From assembly GCF_002356115.1 (NCBI RefSeq), contig NZ_AP014836.1, positions 372,001-436,000 on the forward strand: a stretch of DNA of 64,000 nt. The letters run 5' to 3'. Made by a program: the position numbers and the translations under genes. Numbering within the stretch: the first letter of the stretch is position 1; every line of letters starts with the position of its first letter. Of this stretch, positions 1,253-12,762 are shown one piece after another. The notes below the pieces were generated by a model. That model searched no databases. It had not been told where the DNA came from and saw only the letters and a program-made list of their open reading frames with translations. The DNA is from Candidatus Nitrosoglobus terrae (GTDB lineage Bacteria > Pseudomonadota > Gammaproteobacteria > Nitrosococcales > Nitrosococcaceae).

Positions 1253-2029
1253 CTAGGCCCTGATCCCAACTCCTTTATTTAGTAGATAAAGGGCGATTCC
1301 AGTCATTCCTATTAAAAATATCAAGATAATTGCGAAAGCCATTCGGATGTCAATATCCGATATCCCTAGAGTGCCATAGCGAAAGGCATTAACCATATAG
1401 AAAATCGGATTAAAAAGAGAAGCCGTTTGAGCAACTTCTGGTATTAAGTTGATGGAGTAGAAAACGCCTCCTAAGTAAGTGAGAGGAGTGAGTATGAAAT
1501 TGGGAACAATAGAAATATCATCAAAGTCATTGGCAAAAATAGCATTAATAAACCCTCCTAGTGCAAATACGCAGGCGGTGAGTATTGCTACCATACAAGT
1601 CATTAAAGGGTGTTCTATTTTTAAATGGGTAAAAAAAATCGATATTATCAAAACGATTAATCCGGCCATTAGCCCCCGAATGACTCCTCCAGCTACGTAG
1701 CCCGCTAAGATAATGCCATTAGGAGTGGGGGAAACTAATAGCTCTTCTATATAGTGCTGGAATTTTGCACTAAAAAATGAGGCTACTACATTAGAGTAGG
1801 CGTGGGTAATAATAGCCATCATAATCAGCCCTGGGGCAATATAATCCATATAGCTAAACCCTTCCATAGGACCGATACGGGTACCAATAAGACTGCCGAA
1901 GATAACAAAATACAAAGTCATCGTAACTGCTGGGGGTAGTAAAGTCTGTATCCAGATACGAATGAAGCGCCGGATTTCTTTATGGGCTAGGGTTTTAAAA
2001 GCGATGTAGTAGCATTGTAAGTGACTCAT
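1253..2029 (-). CDS. ABC-2 type transporter permease (YadH-like)
   Basis: Membrane subunit of an ABC exporter of the ABC-2 family. The 258-residue product has about six hydrophobic segments and the family-typical stretch GGVFYSINLIPEVAQ near residue 188, shortly before NPIFYMVNAFRYG. It overlaps the stop of the ATPase gene by four bases (ATGA), so the two subunits are surely co-translated. The pair resembles E. coli YadG/YadH, whose substrate is not established; polysaccharide, lipid or drug export are possible. No substrate can be read from the sequence. Confidence 0.85.
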   Translation of the reverse strand: MSHLQCYYIAFKTLAHKEIRRFIRIWIQTLLPPAVTMTLYFVIFGSLIGTRIGPMEGFSYMDYIAPGLIMMAIITHAYSNVVASFFSAKFQHYIEELLVSPTPNGIILAGYVAGGVIRGLMAGLIVLIISIFFTHLKIEHPLMTCMVAILTACVFALGGFINAIFANDFDDISIVPNFILTPLTYLGGVFYSINLIPEVAQTASLFNPIFYMVNAFRYGTLGISDIDIRMAFAIILIFLIGMTGIALYLLNKGVGIRA

Positions 2030-2952
2030 ACAGTAGTTGCGCTATCAGCGGTGGTAAGCGTTATAAAAAGTTCCTCCAGTCGATTAGCCTTATTTTTCAT
2101 ACTCAGTACTTGAATCCCTTCTTTAGAAAGGGCAATAAATAGCGCATTAAGGTCATCCTCTTTACGTATTTCCGCCTCTAGAGTCATATCGTCTATTCGA
2201 TAAAGGGAATAACCCGGAATGGTTGGGGCAAAACTAAGGGGTTCTTTAAGATAGAGAATGAAGGTTTCCCGGTTAAGTTTGGCGAGCAAGCTTTTCATAG
2301 AGCTATGCTCAACAATAGCGCCTCGATCAATAATGGCAATATTTCGACAGAGCTGCTCAGCCTCTTCAAGGTAATGGGTCGTTAAAATTATAGTAGTCCC
2401 TAAAATATTAGTTTCTCGAAGAAATTGCCACATTGATCGGCGCAGCTCAATATCAACACCTGCAGTAGGTTCATCTAGAATCAGCAGCTGAGGATCATGG
2501 ATTAAAGCCCGTGCAATCATCAGTCGACGTTTCATGCCTCCAGAAAGTCTGTATGCACACTCGTTACGTTTCTCCCATAAGCCTAATTGTTTTAATCGTC
2601 GCTCGGCATTAACACGAGCAACCTTAGCTTTGATGCCATAATATCCAGCTTGAATCACTAGGATATTAAATACCTTTTCAAAGCTGTTACAGTTAAACTC
2701 TTGAGGAACTAAGCCAATAGCGCTTTTAGCGTTTCTAGGATCTTGATCTAGATCAATACCAAACACCAAGACTCTTCCTGAGCTTTTAGTTATCAAGGAG
2801 CAAATAATTCCAATAGTAGTGGATTTTCCCGCGCCATTAGGGCCCAGTAAGGCAAAGAAATCTCCCTGTTCTACCTCCAGATTGATTCCTTTCAGAGCAG
2901 TAAAATGATTATTATAAGTTTTTTGTAGATTTTCTATAATCAGCGCTTTCAT
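2026..2952 (-). CDS. ABC transporter ATP-binding protein (YadG-like)
   Basis: Cytoplasmic ATPase that powers the permease encoded immediately downstream. The 308-residue product shows Walker A GPNGAGKST (residues 37-45), a Q-loop (VPQEF), the ABC signature LSGGMKRR, Walker B LLILDEPTAGVD and the H-loop TTHYLEE. The C-terminal ~80 residues form the accessory domain common in exporters of the drug/polysaccharide type. It is divergent from mutH, with 83 bases between the two starts that must hold both promoters. Confidence 0.9.
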   Translation of the reverse strand: MKALIIENLQKTYNNHFTALKGINLEVEQGDFFALLGPNGAGKSTTIGIICSLITKSSGRVLVFGIDLDQDPRNAKSAIGLVPQEFNCNSFEKVFNILVIQAGYYGIKAKVARVNAERRLKQLGLWEKRNECAYRLSGGMKRRLMIARALIHDPQLLILDEPTAGVDIELRRSMWQFLRETNILGTTIILTTHYLEEAEQLCRNIAIIDRGAIVEHSSMKSLLAKLNRETFILYLKEPLSFAPTIPGYSLYRIDDMTLEAEIRKEDDLNALFIALSKEGIQVLSMKNKANRLEELFITLTTADSATTV

Positions 2953-3035
2953 TGATTATTTAGGGGCAGATTTTTATATAGATATAGTAAATATCCTATC
3001 ATGCATGGAGAATTAATACCGCTCATTTCTGTTCT

Positions 3036-3719
3036 ATGTATACTTTATCACTTTTTATTTCGCCCCCTATCAGTGAGGATGAAATTTTAACCCGCGCTCA
3101 GAAGTTGGCAGGATTAACTTTAGGGCAGATCGCAGCTCGCTTTGATCAGTCAATCCCTCGGGATCTACACCATGCGAAAGGCTGGGTGGGTAAATTATTA
3201 GAGCTGGCACTTGGGGCTACTGCAGGTACGCAAGCAGTCCATGATTTTCCGGATTTAGGGGTAGAGATGAAAACGATTCCGCTACGGAAAGATGGTCGAC
3301 CTAAAGAGGCTACCTATGTATGTACTGTGCCGTTAACAGATTTTGAATCTTACTGGGAAATAAGCTGGGTTCGCCGTAAACTAAGCCGGGTATTATGGCT
3401 ACCAGTAGAGGCTGAAAACTGTGTGCCGTTGCCAAAACGTCGGCTAGGAATGGCATTGCTTTGGAGTCCGAATCTTAAACAAGAGGCTATCTTAAGAGCT
3501 GACTGGGAGGAATTAATGGATATGGTTTGTTTAGGAAAGCTAGAGAGCATTACCGCTTACCAAGGTGTTTATTTACAAATACGCCCTAAAGCGGCTAATA
3601 GTCGCTCTCTATGTGAGGGTATTGGAGAAAGCGGCGAGCGGATTTTGACCTCTCCTCGCGGCTTTTATTTACGTCCTACCTTTACTGCTACTATTTTAGC
3701 TCATTGTTATATGTTGTAG
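3036..3719 (+). CDS. mutH: DNA mismatch repair endonuclease MutH
   Basis: Strand-specific endonuclease that nicks the unmethylated strand at hemimethylated GATC sites once activated by MutS and MutL. The 227-residue product is colinear with E. coli MutH (229 residues), and the catalytic triad falls at the same numbers: D70, E77 and K79 in HDFPDLGVEMKTIP. Other conserved blocks include KGWVGKLLE, LWSPN and LQIRPKAAN. Its presence implies Dam methylation of GATC in this organism. It stands alone, divergent from the ABC exporter, and is followed by a region able to form alternative hairpins. Confidence 0.96.
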   Translation: MYTLSLFISPPISEDEILTRAQKLAGLTLGQIAARFDQSIPRDLHHAKGWVGKLLELALGATAGTQAVHDFPDLGVEMKTIPLRKDGRPKEATYVCTVPLTDFESYWEISWVRRKLSRVLWLPVEAENCVPLPKRRLGMALLWSPNLKQEAILRADWEELMDMVCLGKLESITAYQGVYLQIRPKAANSRSLCEGIGESGERILTSPRGFYLRPTFTATILAHCYML

Positions 3720-4957: not shown

Positions 4958-5863
4958 GTGCTTCGGTTGGGTATCGATCTTGGGGGCACTAAAATTGAGC
5001 TAATTGCCTTAGATAGTATAGGACGAGAGTTGCTAAGAAAGAGAAAGCCTACCCCCCAAGGGAAGTACCAAGGGATACTACAAACTATCAAAATGTTGAT
5101 TGTAGAGGCGGAGCAAGCACTCGGACAACAAGGCGCTGTAGGTGTTGGTACTCCGGGGGCTTTATCCTTGGCGACAGGAAAAATAAAAAATGCTAACTCA
5201 ACATGCCTAAATGGGCAGCCACTACAACAGGATTTAGAAAACTTACTTCATAGACCTATTCGACTTGAAAATGATGCTAATTGTCTTGCCCTTTCTGAAG
5301 CCACTGACGGCGCTGCTGTTAGTGTGCCTATTGTCTTTGGGGTGATTATTGGTACGGGTACTGGGGGCGGGATCGTTGTTGACGGCAAGATATTAACTGG
5401 AGCCAATGCGATTGCAGGAGAATGGGGGCATAATCCACTCCCATGGCCTCAAATAGCAGAGTGGAATCATCCTCCTAATTGTTATTGTGGTAAGCAAGGG
5501 TGTATTGAGACTTGGCTCTCTGGCCCCGGTTTAATGAGAGATTATCAAAAAACCAGCGGAAGTATTTTAGAGCCTAAAGAAATCGCCTTAAAGGCGAGCC
5601 AGGGGGATCAAATGTGTGAAGCAGTATTACAACACTATGAAGATCGACTAGCTCGCGCTTTAGCCCATATTATAAATATTTTAGATCCAAATATTATTGT
5701 GCTCGGAGGCGGCTTGTCTAACCTTCAACGGTTCTATCATAATGTCCCTAAGCGGTGGGGGGCTTATGTATTTTCTGATCAAATCAACACTCAACTCGTA
5801 TCTCCTCGTTATGGGGATTCTAGTGGGGTACGGGGTGCGGCTTGGTTGTGGGATGTTAAGTAG
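4958..5863 (+). CDS. ROK family sugar kinase (fructokinase / N-acetylglucosamine kinase type)
   Basis: Cytoplasmic ATP-dependent sugar kinase of the ROK family. The 301-residue product shows the N-terminal phosphate-binding motif GIDLGGTKIEL (residues 5-15), the substrate and catalytic region LENDANCLALSEATDG, IGTGTGGGIVVDG, the metal-binding pattern EWGHNPLPW and the cysteine motif CYCGKQGCIETWLSGPG that binds zinc in ROK proteins. Sequence alone does not separate fructokinase (Mak) from NagK-type kinases. The GTG start at 4958 is chosen because AGGAG lies about 8 bases upstream. Confidence 0.88.
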   Translation: MLRLGIDLGGTKIELIALDSIGRELLRKRKPTPQGKYQGILQTIKMLIVEAEQALGQQGAVGVGTPGALSLATGKIKNANSTCLNGQPLQQDLENLLHRPIRLENDANCLALSEATDGAAVSVPIVFGVIIGTGTGGGIVVDGKILTGANAIAGEWGHNPLPWPQIAEWNHPPNCYCGKQGCIETWLSGPGLMRDYQKTSGSILEPKEIALKASQGDQMCEAVLQHYEDRLARALAHIINILDPNIIVLGGGLSNLQRFYHNVPKRWGAYVFSDQINTQLVSPRYGDSSGVRGAAWLWDVK

Positions 5864-5916
5864 ATACGAGTAATATGTATATCCGTTATAATAAAAATTT
5901 AGATTAATTTATACGG

Positions 5917-6137
5917 ATGTTTGATTTTATTGAAAGCCTATTAAAGGATTTTGGTCTAGAGCGTGGGTTGTTTGTAGTATTTTTCTTCGGAGCCCATTGG
6001 TATATATATATAGGCTTTATCAAGGAAGATTAGAAGATAGACAAAAAGAAATTAATCGCCTAATACAAGAGAATAAGGAATATAGAGATCGATTCTTTGC
6101 GCTTATGGATAAAAGCTTTAATAGGAAAGAGGAATAA
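5917..6137 (+). pseudogene. Frameshifted small membrane/coiled-coil gene with a TA repeat
   Basis: An ORF starting at ATG 5917 (MFDFIESLLKDFGLERGLFV, then a hydrophobic helix FFFGAHWYIY) stops after 38 codons at 6031-6033. In another frame the DNA continues without a break as RLYQGRLEDRQKEINRLIQ... to TAA at 6135-6137, a charged coiled coil. The frames meet in a run of six TA units at 6001-6012; five units would join them into one 72-residue protein with an amphipathic N-terminus, one membrane helix and a cytoplasmic coiled coil. That overall build recalls BhlA/UviB-type holin-like proteins, but the match is by architecture only. Either a broken gene, a phase-variable one, or a sequencing error. 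Confidence 0.6.
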
Positions 6138-6211
6138 GATGAGGTCATATCATTATGTTTTACTTAGTAATGGTACCTATATGTATTTTTCTCTTATTTT
6201 AGATTTATGAA

Positions 6212-6697
6212 ATGAGAAAAATGAAAAAACACGATAAATATCTTTATATATTTTACGGACTGCAAAGAAACGCTATTCGCTATTTAGTTAATAAGCATAC
6301 AGAATTACCTAAATCAGATTATAAAATCTTGAGGGAATTAATAAATTCCCTTGATTTAATTATTCGGCAATATGAACAAGATAAAGCACCCTTTAATATA
6401 AGAAAACTCAAAAAACACATATCTTGCCTTAAGAAAGCTTCAGATATTCAGGTTCTTCCTAACACTGAAAATGATGATATAAGAAAATTAGCTACAAGAA
6501 TTAGTATTGGCGTTATTGATGCGTTTATTGCATATGCGCCGCTCTTTAAGTATGAATTTATACTAAAGGCGTGCCTGTTTATTCTAAAGGCTACTGCTAT
6601 TATGGGCTTGAAGAGAGCGGGTATTTTTCTTGAAGAAATGAAAGAGGTTAAAAATATTATAGCGCGGAGAGAGGCGCTGCTTTGTAGTAATAGGTAA
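6212..6697 (+). CDS. Hypothetical protein, 161 residues
   Basis: Unrecognised protein in a strongly AT-rich patch whose codon use differs from the surrounding housekeeping genes, suggesting acquired DNA. It is basic at the N-terminus (MRKMKKHDKYLYIFYGLQRN), mostly alpha-helical by appearance, with a moderately hydrophobic stretch near residues 100-130 (ISIGVIDAFIAYAPLFKYEF). Immediately upstream and in frame, ATG 6155 opens a very hydrophobic segment (MFYLVMVPICIFLLF) that ends in TAG at 6200-6202, so an original N-terminal membrane anchor may have been cut off. It is followed by a strong bidirectional terminator. Confidence 0.6.
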   Translation: MRKMKKHDKYLYIFYGLQRNAIRYLVNKHTELPKSDYKILRELINSLDLIIRQYEQDKAPFNIRKLKKHISCLKKASDIQVLPNTENDDIRKLATRISIGVIDAFIAYAPLFKYEFILKACLFILKATAIMGLKRAGIFLEEMKEVKNIIARREALLCSNR

Positions 6698-6716
6698 CTA
6701 GCTAACCACTGAAAAT

Positions 6717-6742
6717 ACAGAGGATCTTAAGAGATCCTCTGT
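6717..6742. terminator. Bidirectional intrinsic terminator
   Basis: Perfect 11-base arms ACAGAGGATCT (6717-6727) and AGATCCTCTGT (6732-6742) with a TAAG loop. On the plus strand it is followed by a T-rich tract and on the minus strand by TATTTTC, so it can stop both the 161-residue gene and thiC, which converge here. Confidence 0.9.
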
Positions 6743-6761
6743 TTATACGTTTTATATATTT

Positions 6762-8675
<1,914 letters not shown>

Positions 8676-8686
8676 TCAGTATAAAA

Positions 8687-8720
8687 GCGTAGATGCTAAC
8701 GGCTTTTAGCCTCCCTACGC
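8687..8720 (-). terminator. Leader terminator overlapping the thiC riboswitch
   Basis: On the minus strand GCGTAG (complement of 8715-8720), which is the 3' end of the riboswitch aptamer, can pair with CTACGC (complement of 8687-8692), followed directly by TTTTAT. A small GGCT-AAAA-GCC stem lies inside. The hairpin competes with folding of the aptamer end, so it is a candidate for the expression platform, either as a terminator or by exposing/masking downstream leader sequence. Confidence 0.5.
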
Positions 8721-8787
8721 CGGTGCTATCTTGATCATGCCTGAGAGGATTTTTCTGCTAAGTGATCATGAAGCATCCCTAGATACG
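8709..8787 (-). promoter_or_regulatory. TPP (thi-box) riboswitch upstream of thiC, divergent
   Basis: Read on the minus strand the leader contains AGGGATGCTTC, then AGCAGAAAAATCC, TGATC, and finally ATAGCACCGGCGTAGGGA, in the order and spacing of the TPP riboswitch (GGGGUGC, CUGAGA, CCUGAUC, AUACCAGCGUAGGGA). It ends about 65 bases before thiC, the classic target. Several normally near-invariant bases are changed: the pyrimidine-sensing CUGAGA is not recognisable and the GG pairing with the last CC is AA. Position and the GCGTAGGGA end make the identity likely, ligand response less so. Confidence 0.7.
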
Positions 8788-8957
8788 CTAACTTAATGGT
8801 AAAACGATAAAGGATCGCGCCACTCCTTGCAACGATTAGCGGGTAACTTTATGGGTATTAGTAGAAAATCGTTATTTATATTTATAAGAGACTGACAATA
8901 GCTTATAGTGATTTTTAAAGCCATTTTGAAGGCCATAACTATTTAGATATAACTATA

Positions 8958-10256
8958 ATGAAAGCTTTGGTAGTTGGAGGAGGGGGACGCGAGCACGCAC
9001 TTGCTTGGAAGCTTGCAAAATCACCTCAAGTCGATTTGATCTATGTAGCACCGGGTAATGCGGGAACCGCAGCAGAGCCTAAGTTAAAAAATATTGCTAT
9101 TAAACCTGATGATATATCAGCGCTCTTGGCCTTTGCGCTAGCAGAGGGTATCGGATTAACTATAGTTGGGCCGGAAATTTCTTTAATTTTAGGTATTGTG
9201 GATGTTTTTGAAAAGGCAGGCTTGCGTTGTTTAGGCCCTCATCGTGCTGCTGCTCGTTTAGAGGGATCTAAATCTTTTGCTAAAGATTTTTTAACCCGTC
9301 AAAATATTCCGACGGCTCGCTATCAGGTTTTTGATGATCCAGATGAAGCCATTACCTATATTAAAACCCAGGTTACCCCGATTGTAGTAAAAGCTGATGG
9401 CTTAGCTGCAGGTAAAGGTGTTGTTATAGCCCAGACTGAATGGGAAGCTATTGAGGCTATCCATGAAATACAAGTTAGTGGCGTATTTGGTGAGGCCGGG
9501 AACCGCGTGGTGATTGAGGAGTTTCTAGCGGGAGAGGAAGCTAGCTTTATTGTGATAACTGATGGCGAGCATATTTTGCCTTTAGTAAGCACGCAAGATC
9601 ATAAGGCTCGTGATAACGGAGATAGGGGCCCCAATACAGGGGGTATGGGAGCCTACTCTCCAGCACCAGTGATAACAGAGCGTGTTTATAACCGCATTAT
9701 GGAAGAGGTGATTGTCCCCACTGTGCGGGGTATGGCTGAAGAAGGGTATCCTTATAGAGGATTTTTATACGCTGGGCTGATGATTGATAAAAATGGATCG
9801 CCTAAGGTACTGGAATATAATTGCCGTTTTGGAGATCCAGAAGCTCAGCCTATTATGATGCGTCTACGCTCAGATTTGATGACGTTATTCTTAGCAACTG
9901 TTGAGAGACGGTTACATGAAATAAGTGTGGAGTGGGACCCTCGTGCAGCCGTAGGCGTAGTAATGGTAGCAAAGGGCTACCCTGGATCTTATGCTATAAA
10001 TGATCCTATTTATGGACTACCTGTCCCTGAACGCGAAGATTGTAAAGTGTTTCATGCGGGCACGATTGAAAAAGGAGGACAAATCCTAACTGCAGGAGGA
10101 CGTGTCCTTTGTGCTTGCGGCCTTGGGAGTTCTGTAACTCAGGCGCAAGCTATAGCTTATAGCTTGGTGCAGCAGATTACTTGGAAAGAAGCCTATTATC
10201 GTACTGATATTGGCTATCGTGCTATCACTAGAGAGGCAGATCGGGATAATAATTAG
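8958..10256 (+). CDS. purD: Phosphoribosylamine-glycine ligase (GAR synthetase)
   Basis: Second step of purine biosynthesis: ATP-dependent joining of phosphoribosylamine and glycine. The 432-residue product has the family length, beginning MKALVVGGGGREHALAWKLA (the N-terminal substrate-binding domain), followed by the ATP-grasp core with KADGLAAGKGV, DHKARDNGDRGPNTGGMGAYSP and the metal-binding end LEYNCRFGDPEAQ. No purH precedes it, unlike E. coli. It is divergent from thiC; both purine and thiamine pathways share aminoimidazole ribotide, though the shared position may be accidental. No Shine-Dalgarno is obvious before the ATG. Confidence 0.97.
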   Translation: MKALVVGGGGREHALAWKLAKSPQVDLIYVAPGNAGTAAEPKLKNIAIKPDDISALLAFALAEGIGLTIVGPEISLILGIVDVFEKAGLRCLGPHRAAARLEGSKSFAKDFLTRQNIPTARYQVFDDPDEAITYIKTQVTPIVVKADGLAAGKGVVIAQTEWEAIEAIHEIQVSGVFGEAGNRVVIEEFLAGEEASFIVITDGEHILPLVSTQDHKARDNGDRGPNTGGMGAYSPAPVITERVYNRIMEEVIVPTVRGMAEEGYPYRGFLYAGLMIDKNGSPKVLEYNCRFGDPEAQPIMMRLRSDLMTLFLATVERRLHEISVEWDPRAAVGVVMVAKGYPGSYAINDPIYGLPVPEREDCKVFHAGTIEKGGQILTAGGRVLCACGLGSSVTQAQAIAYSLVQQITWKEAYYRTDIGYRAITREADRDNN

Positions 10257-10364
10257 AAATTTAGCTATATATTAAATAGCTACTGGTTGAGTCTCTACAG
10301 GTATAGATTTTCGGTTATTTCCACTAAATAAAACTATTTTCAGTAAATAATTAAGGAGAGATAG

Positions 10365-11237
10365 ATGTCTATAGCGCATCCTATTATTGCTGTGACTGGC
10401 TCATCTGGGGCGGGCACATCTACAATAAAACACGCCTTTAATGATATGTTTCGGCGTGAAGGTATTAAACCGGTAGTGATAGAAGGGGATAGTTTTCACC
10501 GCTACGATCGTAAGGCTATGAAAGAAAAAGTAGCGGAATATGAGGTGAAAGGAAAAATTTTGACTCATTTTGGCCCAGAAGCTAACGAGCTAGAGAAATT
10601 AGAGGCTTTATTTCGAGAGTATTCGCAGCAGGGTAGCGGGAAAAAGCGGTTTTATATCCATAGTGAAGAAGAGGGAAAGCCTTACGGTTTAGCCTCAGGG
10701 ACGTTTACTCCGTGGGAGCCTATTGAATCAGATAATCATTTGCTTTTTTATGAAGGTCTTCATGGAGGCGTGGTCACCAATCAGGTGAATGTAGCCCGGT
10801 ATGTGGATTTACTTGTGGGTGTAGTGCCTGTAGTAAATTTAGAGTGGATTCAAAAAATTCACCGGGATTGCCTTAATCGCGGCTACTCTTCGGAGGCTGT
10901 AGTTCAAATCATTCTAAAACGCATGCCAGATTATGTGCACTATATCTGCCCGCAATTTTCTCATACCCATATTAACTTTCAGCGAGTACCTTTAGTAGAT
11001 ACCTCTAATCCTTTTATTGCCCGAGATATTCCAGCACCGGATGAGAGTAGTGTGGTAATTCGTTTCCGTGATCTTCATATGGCCAATTTTCCTTACTATT
11101 TAGGTATGCTCAAGGGATCTTTCATGTCCCGGGCAAATACTCTAGTAGTGCCTGGAGGTAAAATGGGACTTGCGATGGAGATTGTGCTAACACCCATTAT
11201 TCATGATTTAATGGAGAAAAAACGTGCTCGCGGTTAA
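10365..11237 (+). CDS. prk: Phosphoribulokinase, proteobacterial class I
   Basis: Catalyses ATP-dependent phosphorylation of ribulose 5-phosphate to ribulose 1,5-bisphosphate, the step that feeds RuBisCO in the Calvin cycle. The 290-residue product is of the short octameric proteobacterial type, with P-loop GSSGAGTSTIK (residues 13-23), EGDSFHRYDR, FYEGLHGG and VNLEWIQKI as conserved blocks. A strong AAGGAG precedes the ATG. E. coli PrkB is a close relative in an organism without RuBisCO, so enzymatic class is firm but a Calvin-cycle role depends on RuBisCO genes elsewhere. tsaC follows after nine bases. Confidence 0.9.
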   Translation: MSIAHPIIAVTGSSGAGTSTIKHAFNDMFRREGIKPVVIEGDSFHRYDRKAMKEKVAEYEVKGKILTHFGPEANELEKLEALFREYSQQGSGKKRFYIHSEEEGKPYGLASGTFTPWEPIESDNHLLFYEGLHGGVVTNQVNVARYVDLLVGVVPVVNLEWIQKIHRDCLNRGYSSEAVVQIILKRMPDYVHYICPQFSHTHINFQRVPLVDTSNPFIARDIPAPDESSVVIRFRDLHMANFPYYLGMLKGSFMSRANTLVVPGGKMGLAMEIVLTPIIHDLMEKKRARG

Positions 11238-11245
11238 GGTTTACA

Positions 11246-12762
<1,517 letters not shown>

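Follow-up and report, generated by a model that had tools for sequence, protein, structure and literature searches.

An AT-rich insertion in the 64-kb window (by which we mean the whole stretch of DNA that was analyzed) contains two adjacent broken genes, here called A and B, which most likely represent a chromosomal copy, now decayed, of a mobile two-gene cassette rich in AT. At the level of the DNA, gene A carries a frameshift and gene B, paired with it, a nonsense codon. Because slippage in A could not repair B, we infer that the pair no longer functions in this genome, and the presence of separate lesions in adjacent genes favors decay of the cassette over phase variation. Taken alone, the frameshift is no more than ordinary gene decay; its pursuit brought to light a two-gene membrane cassette that is small, rare and mobile and whose range takes in two bacterial phyla, a Mu-like phage and the inside of a BREX locus.

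The broken pair and its insertion site

Gene A is read in two pieces. The 5' part (5917-6033, plus strand) is a 38-aa membrane-helix ORF, MFDFIESLLKDFGLERGLFVVFFFGAHWYIYIGFIKED, which ends at an early stop caused by the frameshift and is homologous to intact A proteins in their N-terminal half. The 3' part (5997-6137, plus strand) lies in another frame and encodes a charged coiled coil of 46 aa up to its stop, LVYIYRLYQGRLEDRQKEINRLIQENKEYRDRFFALMDKSFNRKEE, homologous to the C-terminal half of the same proteins. A previous sequence-only reading of this DNA had placed the loss of frame exactly at a (TA)6 repeat between the halves, and the ORF readings confirm it: the tract occupies 6001-6012 (plus strand) and is the sole one of its kind in the window. 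The two halves represent one gene, because intact relatives align without gaps across the junction. A 72-aa joined reading of A served solely for searches and alignments.

The same reading had suspected that the downstream gene was truncated, and the cause proves to be an in-frame TAG at 6200-6202 (plus strand), directly after the codons of a membrane helix. Judged by alignment with intact B proteins, the full extent of gene B is 6155-6697 (plus strand), with the helix at 6155-6199; the reading runs from the ATG at 6155 through MFYLVMVPICIFLLF to the TAG and then continues as IYEMRKMKKHDKYLYIF and onward as far as 6697. The list of ORFs starts the gene at 6212, and the lost helix is thereby hidden: the N-terminal hydropathy peak is 2.12 when B is read from 6155, against 0.01 from 6212. 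The window B matches the B protein of a planctomycete relative (L003, below) at a pairwise E of 2e-13. The window B lacks the C and the R of an FC-x-x-RR motif that is otherwise conserved among B copies, and among 18 positions that are invariant in all other copies it has changed five, compared with one to four for each of the other copies in the same comparison. Such residue loss is weak evidence of decay, because identity among the five B sequences is no more than 23-39%.

Both genes lie in an insertion at 5864-6712 (plus strand), between a ROK-kinase gene and thiC, with a GC content of 30.7% against a window mean of 41.3%; no other 850-bp stretch of the window is as rich in AT. In the sister genus (G002) the gene order is the same (mutH-like, VanZ-like, ROK kinase, thiC, purD) and the insertion is missing, so that the gap between the ROK-kinase gene and thiC measures 60 bp there, terminator included, against 898 bp in the window. 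The lowest GC content of the window, together with this absence between the same flanks, marks the cassette as foreign. A terminator hairpin at 6717-6742 is common to the convergent flanking genes and has an equivalent in G002; it is part of the host site rather than of the cassette. A TATAAT at 5887-5892 (plus strand), picked out by eye, might be the -10 element of a promoter of the cassette's own; it is weak, has no good -35 and is absent from the promoter scan.

Relatives carrying the pair

Intact, in-frame copies of gene A occur at five other loci: in one gammaproteobacterium from another family (L021, genome G530), in three planctomycetes (L003, a MAG; L022, genome G924; L035, genome G1108) and on the contig of a Mu-like phage (L008), which was found through its gene B. 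The A proteins of L003, L008, L021 and L022 align gap-free across the junction that is broken in the window, and that of L035 aligns likewise with them. Gene A of L003 is complete and in frame, with 60% identity over residues 2-68 of the joined reading. The common pattern is GLF..FF...H......Y.GR..DRQ.EI.RL...N..YR, and the intact proteins show hydropathy peaks of 1.35-2.53 and a charged fraction of 0.38-0.50 in the tail. The product of A would be some 70-90 aa long, a single membrane helix leading into a charged coiled coil that is probably cytoplasmic.

Gene B stands immediately 3' of A in all five relatives, and in L021 the stop of A and the start of B overlap (TAATG). In L003, L021, L022 and L035, where both genes are intact, B is 180-187 aa long and begins with a membrane helix, followed by a KHD motif; its product, of about 180 aa, would comprise a membrane helix at the N-terminus and a domain that is entirely helical. 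The remaining pair, that of L008 (4716-5549, plus strand), has open codons for the B helix, and these are out of frame with a well-placed ATG at 4988, adjoining a run of five T; this B copy is either damaged too or misassembled.

Gene A is rare. Searches of the 58 other genomes nearest to this one found no relative, the samples of the class and the phylum contained a single gammaproteobacterial carrier besides the window's own genome, and the three planctomycete carriers came from partly overlapping samples of 294, 62 and 387 genomes. This patchy presence and the foreign composition of the cassette point to horizontal spread. The cassette has a GC content of 31% in L003, compared with 51% for tatD, and of 38% in L008, compared with 58%; those of L022 and L035 are likewise AT-rich, and that of L021 matches the composition of its host. 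In L003, a partial, diverged duplicate of the tatD 3' end, seen by eye, lies at 5700-5830, just upstream of the cassette (the full tatD is at 2896-3672); this fragment was possibly carried along in transfer.

A similar layout is found in another genome (L036 in G1123, 1679-2522, plus strand), where genes for an 87-aa membrane/coiled-coil protein and then a 192-aa protein whose N-terminus forms a helix precede an htpG-like gene. The match is E 5.6e-6 for the A-like protein and E 0.047 for the B-like protein (hhalign), and on these sequence comparisons the pair is a possible lead to a wider superfamily. Weak profile matches in six further genomes (G081, G814, G883, G984, G1008 and G1114) were not accepted, among other grounds because they had no partner gene or had long unrelated frames.

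Decay and its alternatives

In the history that we propose, horizontal transfer would have placed the cassette between the ROK-kinase gene and thiC, after which A would have been disabled by a two-base change in length at its TA run, and B by a nonsense mutation. The decay is probably recent, because B has no second stop: after the TAG it stays open for 161 codons. The same open stretch provides a counterpoint, as B could still be translated from 6212. Gene A would then be dead and the remainder of B (6212-6697, plus strand), which is without the membrane helix, retained as a working soluble protein. This is unlikely. The 161 codons have remained open despite the AT-rich sequence, and in L008 the helix codons are likewise out of frame with the best-placed ATG; nevertheless, by eye there is no good ribosome-binding site before 6212, the helix is kept in four of the five relatives, and L008 may contain an assembly error.

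Slipped-strand phase variation, whereby the gain or loss of TA units would switch A on and off, was one half of the earlier suggestion that the patch is switchable or decaying, and we now consider it improbable. As in phase-variable genes with simple sequence repeats, a dinucleotide tract is found exactly at the frame junction, and the remainder of A is conserved. However, the window tract is short at six units and is absent from the junction in all five relatives, and the partner is broken beyond repair by slippage: the TAG in B stays whatever the number of TA units, and a working locus is not restored. Tracts of at least six units number three in the 2.02-Mb genome (two contigs), against about 1.2 expected per genome under a first-order Markov model of the window; with the count this near chance, the tract alone is unremarkable. 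The chance of such a tract in random sequence of the composition of the cassette is 0.4%. Phase variation has lost its main support, and the nonsense codon in B, the lack of the tract in the relatives and its near-chance frequency favor decay, the other half of the suggestion.

The three tracts lie near the start of the main contig, at 6001-6012 of the window and on the small contig. Outside the window, a (TA)9 at G000:C1:1622-1639 is situated between two ORFs that by eye resemble dnaA and dnaN. Judged by family, genome size and gene content, the genome is probably that of an ammonia-oxidizing member of the Nitrosococcaceae, of the Nitrosoglobus type.

An assembly or sequencing error, with both genes intact in the true genome, is about as improbable as phase variation. 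Repeat tracts are prone to error and intact relatives exist, but such a reading requires errors of two different kinds, a change in length by two bases and a substitution, inside a span of 200 bp in an assembly that consists of two contigs and is rated 99.98% complete. Least likely by far is translational recoding, in which ribosomes would skip two bases within the TA run and produce A at full length: a two-base slip should keep codon-anticodon pairing inside the run, but two-base ribosome hops are rare, the tract is found in no relative and B has an unrelated stop.

Known systems and a possible role for intact pairs

The resemblance of A to holin-like BhlA/UviB proteins that the sequence-only reading had proposed extends to the architecture (as in Pfam Holin_BhlA, the protein is small, with a single membrane helix at the N-terminus and a tail that is helical and charged) and stops short of family membership. 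Pfam holin models gave no match at E<=10 to the two halves of A, to the joined 72-aa reading or to the five intact relatives. Moreover, A differs from BhlA/UviB in that it is always paired with B and is not part of an endolysin or bacteriocin operon; its neighbors in the window are the ROK-kinase gene and thiC, and the endolysin gene near the L008 pair is on the other strand.

More generally, the A-B cassette is named by no library searched here. Neither A nor B fits any model in Pfam, NCBIfam or PADLOC, and the lone PADLOC match, to a coiled-coil model (E 0.03), is at chance level. The phage and plasmid collections held no credible relative of either gene, the sole phage matches being archaeal lipothrixvirus ORFs (E 0.2). 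Among scattered weak PHROG matches the best, phrog_19686 (E 1.7e-4 with the joined reading of A), was set aside, as it was repeated by no intact relative. An AlphaFold model of the L003 B protein consists entirely of helices (mean pLDDT 70, from a shallow alignment of three sequences) and had no significant fold match in the PDB or among viral models, and sequence searches of solved structures returned chance matches and nothing more.

On the L008 contig, which carries terminase subunits, an endolysin and a transposition protein, the pair runs antiparallel to these phage genes, with a strong hairpin behind it. The L035 cassette (5419-6264, minus strand) is flanked by brxC and pglX inside a BREX locus (L035:340-11282), on the opposite strand, with BrxA and BrxB upstream (PADLOC E-values of 1.7e-67 for BrxA, 4.6e-70 for BrxB, 0 for BrxC and 1.5e-275 for PglX). 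Tail-fibre-like and Rha-like genes lie within a few kb of the L021 pair, and the L022 cassette is 3' of a uvrA-like gene. Six copies thus include one on a phage contig, one in a BREX locus and a third with prophage genes nearby.

The BREX locus and the opposite-strand placement in the phage suggest an accessory role in phage exclusion or defence. This is the likeliest role of the intact pairs, in which A and B would work jointly at the membrane, although, drawn as it is from placement, the assignment is a tentative one. It is much less certain than decay, coming from a small sample with one BREX and one phage context in six copies. Phage morons and superinfection-exclusion genes offer a parallel as small AT-rich cassettes for membrane proteins, and the arrangement in L008 is in keeping with it; they differ in that no annotated phage gene matches A or B credibly in sequence and the pair is mostly found outside phages. 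Accessory genes embedded in BREX loci share the position seen in L035, and the pair differs from them in that this position is taken by one A-B copy in six, on the opposite strand, with no PADLOC family and with membrane proteins as products. In part of a survey of BREX loci (PMC12839542), nucleases are stressed as the embedded effectors.

Possibly, A and B form a hitherto undescribed two-protein, membrane-anchored system of phage exclusion or defence, in which B may be costly to the cell and its membrane anchor would be lost first, with A following later. This order of loss is compatible with L008, where A is intact and the B helix out of frame, and with the window, where both genes are broken; no copy with A broken and B intact was seen, among the two damaged copies known. 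Should the pair protect against phages, it would represent a new and compact system, and one that is easily tested, as the intact copies are shorter than 1 kb. At the BREX locus of L035, the reading of pglX itself is split over two ORFs, at 8468-10603 and 10545-11282.
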